Shown here piece by piece: positions 527 to 1,819 of a stretch of 64,000 bases of DNA; position 1 is the stretch's first letter; each line of letters starts with the position of its first letter. The translations under genes were made by a program, and so were the position numbers. Source of the stretch: Finegoldia magna (GTDB lineage: Bacteria; Bacillota; Clostridia; Tissierellales; Peptoniphilaceae); contig NZ_QGTH01000009.1 in assembly GCF_003182075.1 (NCBI RefSeq), positions 1 to 64,000 on the forward strand. The letters run 5' to 3'. The notes below the pieces were generated by a model. That model had not been told where the DNA came from, did no database searches, and saw nothing but the letters and a program-made list of their open reading frames with translations.

Positions 527-562
527 GACTTGTTTGAGAGCTCCAAGTATAAAAAAACAAGG
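527..562 (+). ncRNA. preQ1-I riboswitch aptamer
   Basis: Stem P1 is ACTTG (528-532) with CAAGT (544-548). The 11-nt loop 533-543 ends in C543, the position that contacts the ligand in class I preQ1 aptamers. The A-rich tail ATAAAAAAACAAGG (549-562) matches the family consensus, and CAAG in the tail can pair with TTTG (533-536) to form pseudoknot stem P2. It lies directly before an ECF S component and a radical SAM gene, both plausible queuosine-precursor salvage genes. A covariance-model search would settle it; the fit by eye is good. Confidence 0.8.
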
Positions 563-572
563 CGTTATTTTT

Positions 573-605
573 GAGTTCTCCTATATTTTATTAGGAGGTT
601 TTTTT
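573..605 (+). terminator. Riboswitch expression platform: terminator overlapping the RBS
   Basis: CTCCTA (578-583) pairs with TAGGAG (592-597), followed by a run of T. The 3' arm contains the AGGAGG ribosome site (593-598) of the gene starting at 607, so the hairpin can block both transcription and translation. GAGTTCTC (573-580) can instead pair over 8 bp (one G-U) with GAGAGCTC (536-543) inside the aptamer loop. That alternative pairing would open the terminator when ligand is absent. Confidence 0.75.
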
Positions 606-606
606 A

Positions 607-1149
607 TTGAGAAAAACGAATACGAAATTGTTGACTACTATAGCGATTTGCATTGCAATCAACTGCCTTGGTGCTTTTATCGCTGTTAGTACGAAGGTTC
701 CTTTGTTATTGGATCACATAGGATCTTTATTGGTGTGTATGTTATTTGGATGGAAATACGGTGTTGTGACTGCGCTTTTATCGTCTGTTATGAACCAAAT
801 TCTTTTCGATCCATTTGCACTTCCATTTGCGCCTACAGGTATGCTTATGGTGTTTATGGTTGGTATTTTATACGAAAAGGGATATTTCAAGAAATTGCAC
901 ACTATTCCTGCACTTTTATTGGCTGTGCTTCCAGGCGCTATTTTGGGTGCTATTATTCAAGGTTATATTTTTGGTGGGGTTACAAGTTCAGGAAGTGATG
1001 TTATTGTAAGATTTATGATTAACAAGGGAGTAAATCCAGCTGCGGCATCTTTTATCAACCAATATTTTATGGAATTTGTGGACAGACTTATTTCATTTAC
1101 TGTTGTGATGACTGCTGTTAAGAGGATTAAGCTTGAATCGATACGCTAA
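607..1149 (+). CDS. ECF transporter S component, probable queuosine-precursor importer (QrtT-like)
   Basis: A 180-residue very hydrophobic protein with about five to six membrane spans, the size and pattern of the substrate-binding S subunit of energy-coupling-factor importers. The energising EcfA/EcfT module is not in this window and would be shared. Start is TTG at 607, eight bases after AGGAGG. A preQ1-I riboswitch precedes it and a radical SAM gene overlaps its end by 17 bases. In Clostridioides difficile an ECF S protein (QrtT) sits with the radical SAM queuine lyase QueL, so queuine or a preQ base/nucleoside is the likely substrate. The family call is firm; the substrate rests on the riboswitch and neighbour. 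Confidence 0.75.
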   Translation: MRKTNTKLLTTIAICIAINCLGAFIAVSTKVPLLLDHIGSLLVCMLFGWKYGVVTALLSSVMNQILFDPFALPFAPTGMLMVFMVGILYEKGYFKKLHTIPALLLAVLPGAILGAIIQGYIFGGVTSSGSDVIVRFMINKGVNPAAASFINQYFMEFVDRLISFTVVMTAVKRIKLESIR

Positions 1150-1819
1150 GATTGAGGAAAAATTAAAACGCGAGATTGTGCTTTTGAAAGGCAGACCATG
1201 TTTTTGGGGCAAATGCACATTTTGCGATTACATTGAAGACAATACGGTGGATATGGATGATGCTGTTCGTGAAAATCGTGAGATTATTCAAAATGTGACT
1301 GGTGAATTCGGTGTTTTGGAATGTATTAATTCGGGAAATGTGTTCGAACTTCCAGAACAGACGAAAATCGACATCAAGAATTTAATTCACGAAAAAAACA
1401 TTCATACTTTGGTTTTCGAAGCGCATTATATTTTCAAGAATAGACTTCACGAAATCAGGGAATTTTTCGAATGCGAGGTTTTGTTTAAGACTGGAATTGA
1501 AACGTTCGATTACGATTTTAGAGAAAATGTCCTCAACAAAAACGCAAAATTCACTGATGTAAAAGATGTGTCCGATTATTTTGATTCGGCGTGTTTAATG
1601 GTTGGAATCAAGGGTCAAACTAAGGAAATGATTGAAAAAGACATTGAGATAGGCCTTTCTAATTTCAAATGGATTACTATTAATATTTTCATCAATAATT
1701 CTACGCCGATTAAAAGAGATGATGAGCTTGTGAAGTGGTTTTTGGAAAATCACTACGATTTGAAAGACCATCCGAAGGTTGAAATGTTAGTTGAAAACAC
1801 TGATTTGGGAGTTGGTTAA
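1133..1819 (+). CDS. Radical SAM protein, possible queuine lyase (QueL-like)
   Basis: A 228-residue protein with a cysteine cluster C23-x4-C28-x2-C31 near the N-terminus. That is one residue longer in the first gap than the canonical radical SAM CX3CX2C. Start is TTG at 1133 after AGAGG, overlapping the upstream ECF gene, so the two are translationally coupled and share the preQ1 riboswitch. QueL of C. difficile and relatives, a radical SAM enzyme that trims queuine back to preQ1 for salvage, has the same companion gene type. No nucleoside hydrolase (QueK) is next to it. Enzyme class is well supported; the queuine lyase role is inference from context. Confidence 0.6.
   Translation: MNRYAKIEEKLKREIVLLKGRPCFWGKCTFCDYIEDNTVDMDDAVRENREIIQNVTGEFGVLECINSGNVFELPEQTKIDIKNLIHEKNIHTLVFEAHYIFKNRLHEIREFFECEVLFKTGIETFDYDFRENVLNKNAKFTDVKDVSDYFDSACLMVGIKGQTKEMIEKDIEIGLSNFKWITINIFINNSTPIKRDDELVKWFLENHYDLKDHPKVEMLVENTDLGVG

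Follow-up and report, generated by a model that had tools for sequence, protein, structure and literature searches.

Known preQ1-I riboswitches and the Finegoldia locus

In C. difficile, the queK-qrtT-queL operon is under the control of a preQ1-I riboswitch (PMC11477304, citing Yuan et al., 2019, PNAS). In aptamers of type I, the 5′ strand of P1 is followed by UU, the 3′ strand is preceded by UC, and the tail has a conserved C; those of type II carry AC (PMC11625349, PMC8752633). The type II riboswitch of B. subtilis queC is an OFF switch that acts through a ligand-dependent intrinsic terminator, and its A-rich L3 takes part in the antiterminator (PMC11625349). In the type I riboswitch of Carnobacterium antarcticum, the tail itself acts as the Shine-Dalgarno (SD) sequence, and the bases U6, U7, U16, C17, A30 and C31 contact two preQ1 molecules in the structure (PMC8752633).

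We analyzed a window of 64,000 nt at the beginning of contig C9 in a 2.02 Mb Finegoldia magna genome. Its sequence, compared with related loci, reveals an aptamer, two competing pairings and an operon of two genes, all on the plus strand: a qrtT-like gene for an ECF transporter S subunit (607–1149; 180 aa, TTG start) and queL for a predicted radical SAM queuine lyase (1133–1819; 228 aa), which overlap by 17 nt. The leader at 524–606 very likely senses preQ1 and acts as an OFF switch (class I, type I) of this qrtT-queL queuine-salvage operon. The original prediction had named the QrtT/QueL pair of C. difficile, and the published operon there is indeed alike in riboswitch class, in the order of the QrtT-like S subunit and QueL, and in its salvage role. 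It differs from the window operon, which is devoid of queK and whose leader scores below the Rfam threshold. The gene types and the sensor class are therefore already known, and what is new is the divergence of the aptamer and a switch based on its loop. A search of part of the literature for co-mention of the two words found no paper linking Finegoldia with a preQ1 riboswitch.

The operon encodes a QrtT-like S subunit and a predicted queuine lyase

The S subunit matched PF12822 with 74.9 bits (E = 1e-20; cut-off 30.7) and reached 81.9 bits on NCBIfam ECF_S_CD3073, below the curated cut-off of 180; a paralogue encoded on contig C13 scored higher on the latter model (115 bits). We compared both with the S subunit of the Romboutsia queK-qrtT-queL operon. 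The best match of this protein in the Finegoldia genome was 607–1149 (38% identity, E = 4e-35, versus 2e-19 for the C13 paralogue), and the two operon proteins are reciprocal best matches. Among 80 QueL-encoding loci that we collected, an S subunit gene adjoins queL in 53, and the order hydrolase-S-queL is found in 39. As the reciprocal best match and the adjacency to queL agree, sequence comparison supports 607–1149 as a QrtT-like S subunit for queuosine precursors. The TTG start is supported by three relatives (L010, L011 and L134), which have ATG at about the same place.

The product of 1133–1819 matched the queuine lyase structure 6p78_A over its full length (E = 6e-79; 56.6% identity without gaps). 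It keeps 60 of the 63 positions conserved among the 80 sequences, F101, H207 and L225 replacing Y, Y and F, respectively, while the score on the NCBIfam model for RaSEA (TIGR01210) was 42.6 bits against a cut-off of 212. These comparisons support the assignment of the protein as QueL, a predicted queuine lyase, and agree with the identities first proposed for both genes. The CX4CX2C spacing of its cluster motif, previously contrasted with CX3CX2C, is present as described, but 6P78 has the same spacing and so do 76 of 76 QueL relatives in which the motif was found. The spacing is universal in the QueL set wherever the region is complete and can be ruled out as a mark that separates this radical SAM protein from QueL. 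A metagenome-assembled genome (MAG) labeled Anaerococcus sp. SUG356 encodes a QueL 97% identical to that of the window.

The leader contains a type I preQ1-I aptamer

The aptamer spans 524–568. Its P1 consists of ACTTG (528–532) and CAAGT (544–548), with five of five pairs formed, and encloses the 11 nt loop TTTGAGAGCTC (533–543), the last base of which is C; the A-rich tail ATAAAAAAACAAGG follows at 549–562. Every one of these elements lies where it had been placed from the sequence. The site thus combines the structural features of the class, namely a 5-bp P1, a loop within 10–13 nt, a C before the 3′ strand and an A-rich tail, with a significant match to a covariance model of our own (R1, see below). 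We numbered the loop by mapping it on the Carnobacterium type I structure (PMC8752633) and on 24 aptamers, by which U6 and U7 correspond to 533 and 534, U8 to 535, A12 to 539, and U16 and C17 to 542 and 543. C17 is the specificity base of the aptamer. Because U533 U534, U542 C543 and C558 fit the published rules, the aptamer is assigned by sequence to preQ1 class I, type I.

The tail can be paired with the loop in more than one register. We prefer the register of the crystal structure to a continuous 4-bp P2 (UUUG at 533–536 with CAAG at 558–561), because the latter would take up U6, U7 and C31, three bases assigned to ligand contact by the published structure. In the minimum free energy fold of the whole leader, P1 is absent. 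This is expected for a pseudoknot, yet it lends the aptamer no support.

A short hairpin, CTGAAA/TTTCAG (511–526), ends one base 5′ of P1 and might be an accessory stem. It shows compensating changes in L011 and is represented by other sequence in L010, L082 and L078. Hairpins of 6 or more bp abut P1 in 42% of 50 aptamers of queL operons, compared with 6.6% of shuffled sequences. Such P1-abutting hairpins of 6–9 bp, often ending in GG, are seen in L021, L048, L039, L030, L078, L082 and L080 as well as in the window; they may belong to the fold or may just stabilize the 5′ end.

The aptamer loop is predicted to compete with a hairpin that contains the SD sequence

Within the loop, GAGAGCTC (536–543) can pair with GAGTTCTC (573–580) to form an antiterminator, which is also an anti-sequestor. 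The last three bases of the 3′ strand also begin the hairpin at 578–597, whose stem is made of CTCCTA (578–583) and TAGGAG (592–597) followed by G598. The hairpin's 3′ arm carries the SD sequence AGGAGG (593–598), 8 nt 5′ of the TTG start, and seven U residues follow at 599–605. The two strands and their overlap with the terminator, as well as the SD sequence in the 3′ arm, had been predicted; the direct count gave eight pairs including one G-U. The 8-bp loop-to-leader pairing has a p value of about 0.007 against dinucleotide shuffles, which is modest by itself. The hairpin is the one terminator-like site in the region 380–660, where 0.1 is expected in shuffles.

We calculated folding energies for two transcript ends, with the pseudoknot and the ligand excluded. 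For a transcript ending at 590, the antiterminator had −11.5 kcal/mol versus −3.3 kcal/mol for the aptamer stem, and for one ending at 600, once the terminator can form, −11.5 versus −11.2 kcal/mol. These nearly balanced energies imply that the ON fold would arise first and that the bonus from ligand binding could tip the switch. As the antiterminator uses C543 and U542, it could not coexist with the ligand-bound aptamer. Together with the conservation described below, the calculations support the logic originally suggested, in which the aptamer loop opposes an SD-hiding terminator.

We infer the ligand, the direction of control, the double effect on termination and translation, and the substrate of the transporter. 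When preQ1 is scarce, the loop bases 536–543, including C543, would pair with 573–580; the antiterminator would hold 578–580 off the SD arm, which would prevent the terminator and leave the ribosome site accessible. With abundant preQ1, the ligand and the pseudoknot would hold the loop and allow 578–597 to fold. The folded hairpin would have two effects: transcription would stop at the U tract, and AGGAGG would be covered in any transcript that escapes. The resulting switch would be compact, since the bases that read the ligand also build the ON structure and therefore ligand and antiterminator directly exclude each other. In this the leader differs from B. subtilis queC, an OFF switch likewise, where the antiterminator is built with the A-rich L3 and not with the loop of P1 that bears the ligand specificity bases, and from C. 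antarcticum, where the output is not a separate hairpin.

The switch is conserved in Finegoldia-like and Peptoniphilus-like leaders

As the MAFFT alignment misplaced the anti-sequestor, the pairing was counted directly in ten leaders. The 8-bp pairing, the hairpin and seven U residues are common to six Finegoldia-like or Peptoniphilus-like leaders (the window, L096, L009, L011, L010 and L134). The design loop:GAGUUCUC:GGAGG recurs in the five relatives, in which the antiterminator 3′ strand is identical to that of the window. The sole G-U pair of the antiterminator is replaced by A-U in L010, and the hairpin is kept in the relatives while its loop varies. Two further leaders, L123 and L119, have a 7-bp loop pairing and an SD hairpin without a U tract, the pairing in L119 having a p value of about 0.08. 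L124 and L125 also lack the U tract, and their 6-bp pairing is indistinguishable from chance. Many Clostridium leaders and that of Romboutsia (L082) are built differently: as read by eye, their visible switch is a CUAAGG tail that pairs with a later CCUUAG before the terminator, whereas the window uses the aptamer loop.

These leaders bear on whether the hairpin stops transcription at all. It might be mainly a translational lock that hides the SD sequence, with an incidental U tract and weak termination: its 3′ arm is the SD sequence, its stem has just 6–7 pairs, three of them G-C, and L123 and L119 combine loop pairing and hairpin with no U tract between the SD sequence and ATG. However, exactly seven U residues stand right after the stem in six of six leaders from Finegoldia and near Peptoniphilus, and they are kept while the flanks vary. 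We therefore consider a mainly translational lock unlikely and favor a hairpin that would both terminate and sequester. The leaders with and without the U tract offer a clean test of the conversion between translational and transcriptional riboswitches.

In four Peptoniphilaceae loci (L119, L122, L124 and L125; minus strands), type I preQ1-like leaders precede a gene for a QueK-like nucleoside hydrolase. At least in genome G022, queL is on a different contig from the riboswitch-led hydrolase gene, which points to a split regulon.

The ligand pocket retains the contact bases under an altered ceiling

The aptamer shares with that of C. antarcticum the UU after the P1 5′ strand, the UC before the 3′ strand and A30-C31 in the tail, and its loop is one base shorter. 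All six ligand-contact bases of the Carnobacterium structure, at both the alpha and the beta site, are kept in the window. In contrast, the ceiling of the pocket is altered from C8-A12-U32 to U-A-A: C8 is replaced by U535 and U32 by A559, at odds with the type I preference for C8 and U32. Position 8 of the loop is C in the other aptamers and invariant in the 24 used for comparison. A U8-A32 pair is possible, and the ceiling would then resemble that of the B. subtilis aptamer, which is of a simple Watson-Crick type.

The tail C31 is naturally replaced by U in two otherwise conserved type I aptamers, those of L010 (4386–4431) and L134 (1505–1550). The same change in the Carnobacterium riboswitch raised the EC50 about 210-fold and weakened regulation (PMC8752633), and by analogy the beta preQ1 site of L010 and L134 would be impaired. 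The changes that occur naturally at C8, U32 and C31 amount to a set of mutants on which the two-ligand model of type I preQ1 riboswitches can be examined. In a broader reading of lower probability, the loop is an antiterminator strand, one hairpin both terminates and hides the SD sequence, and the rebuilt ceiling, together with the missing C31 of the close Peptoniphilus relatives L010 and L134, forms a natural series that alters or loses beta-site preQ1.

The same substitutions could mean that the leader senses another or an additional molecule, for example queuine, or a single preQ1 rather than a pair. The exchanges of C8 for U and U32 for A in Finegoldia change the ceiling of the beta site, and its specificity base C31 is U in L010 and L134. 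Nevertheless, the window preserves every alpha- and beta-site contact, and the content of the operon matches canonical preQ1 cases. A different ligand is accordingly improbable, and preQ1 remains the ligand that we favor.

The divergent aptamer is found by a model of queL-operon leaders

The covariance model of Rfam had been named as a check on the aptamer. RF00522 detected the site with 18.1 bits, below its gathering score of 39, and no match was reported when the whole window was scanned at the curated Rfam thresholds. Among our 80 loci, preQ1-like leaders lie upstream of most operons, some of which Rfam accepts by its own threshold. From 24 other queL-operon leaders, none of them from Finegoldia or Peptoniphilus, we built the covariance model R1. 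It matched 524–568 with 36 bits (E = 4e-7 over 397 kb and 2.1e-6 genome-wide), the sole significant match in the genome, where the runner-up had E = 0.15. R1 also matched the same site in L096, the sister species, as well as in L009 and L011, and more weakly in L010. A preQ1-like site on contig C2 (44110; 19.8 Rfam bits) is without P1 and without a target gene and was taken as chance.

That the stretch resembles an aptamer by chance or as a decayed relic, within an ordinary attenuator or plain 5′UTR, is very improbable: the sub-threshold Rfam score and an exact sequence limited to one species group would fit this, but the independent model finds the site 40–80 nt upstream of a salvage operon and the leader of Peptoniphilus conserves it at 88%. 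The queuine-salvage regulon is thereby extended to Finegoldia-like bacteria and their near relatives, in which a pipeline based on the Rfam cut-off overlooks the riboswitches.

The genome encodes the later steps of the queuosine pathway

In the Finegoldia genome, tgt and queA are adjacent on contig C4, and queH is on C7. No queC was found in the genome; we rejected the two QueC matches, one being ThiI-like and located beside a cysteine desulfurase gene and the other QatC, and preQ0 synthesis is for this reason probably absent. With tgt, queA and queH present and queC not found, the cell looks like a salvager. It probably salvages bases, and perhaps nucleosides too via a second system on C13. 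Seven EcfT-like genes score above the cut-off in the genome, so an energizing module would be available. QrtT, with a shared ECF module, would import queuine and/or preQ1; QueL would convert queuine to preQ1, and Tgt, QueA and QueH would complete queuosine in tRNA.

The nucleoside hydrolase encoded on C13 is about 30% identical to operon QueKs and closest to RihC, and it has an ECF operon of its own; it was not counted as a displaced QueK. This operon (L106, 5876–9776 of C13) has the order S-T-A-A′ followed by the RihC-like hydrolase gene, and its S subunit is the QrtT paralogue with the genome's best match to NCBIfam CD3073. It is possibly a system for the uptake and hydrolysis of nucleosides, queuosine perhaps among them. 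The QatC-like protein (L093, 667–1983 of C12; PADLOC E = 8e-115) suggests a Qat anti-phage system in the genome.

Neighboring and divergent elements

Just upstream of the leader, the window contains a 253 nt element (182–434) with perfect 20-bp terminal inverted repeats, which folds as one long hairpin (z = −7.5). About 35 further matches to the core of this element (243–367) occur in the genome, and on contig C2 some of them form head-to-tail arrays with a period of 272–274 nt.

In three Spirochaete MAGs and one Clostridiales MAG, preQ1-I-like leaders with the SD sequence in the tail sit on the gene divergent from queL (L033, 4882–4927; L045, 4881–4927; L059, 4902–4949; L084, 4873–4919; all on minus strands). 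In L059 and L084, this riboswitch-led gene encodes a queuosine-precursor transporter of the Vut_1/YhhQ family.
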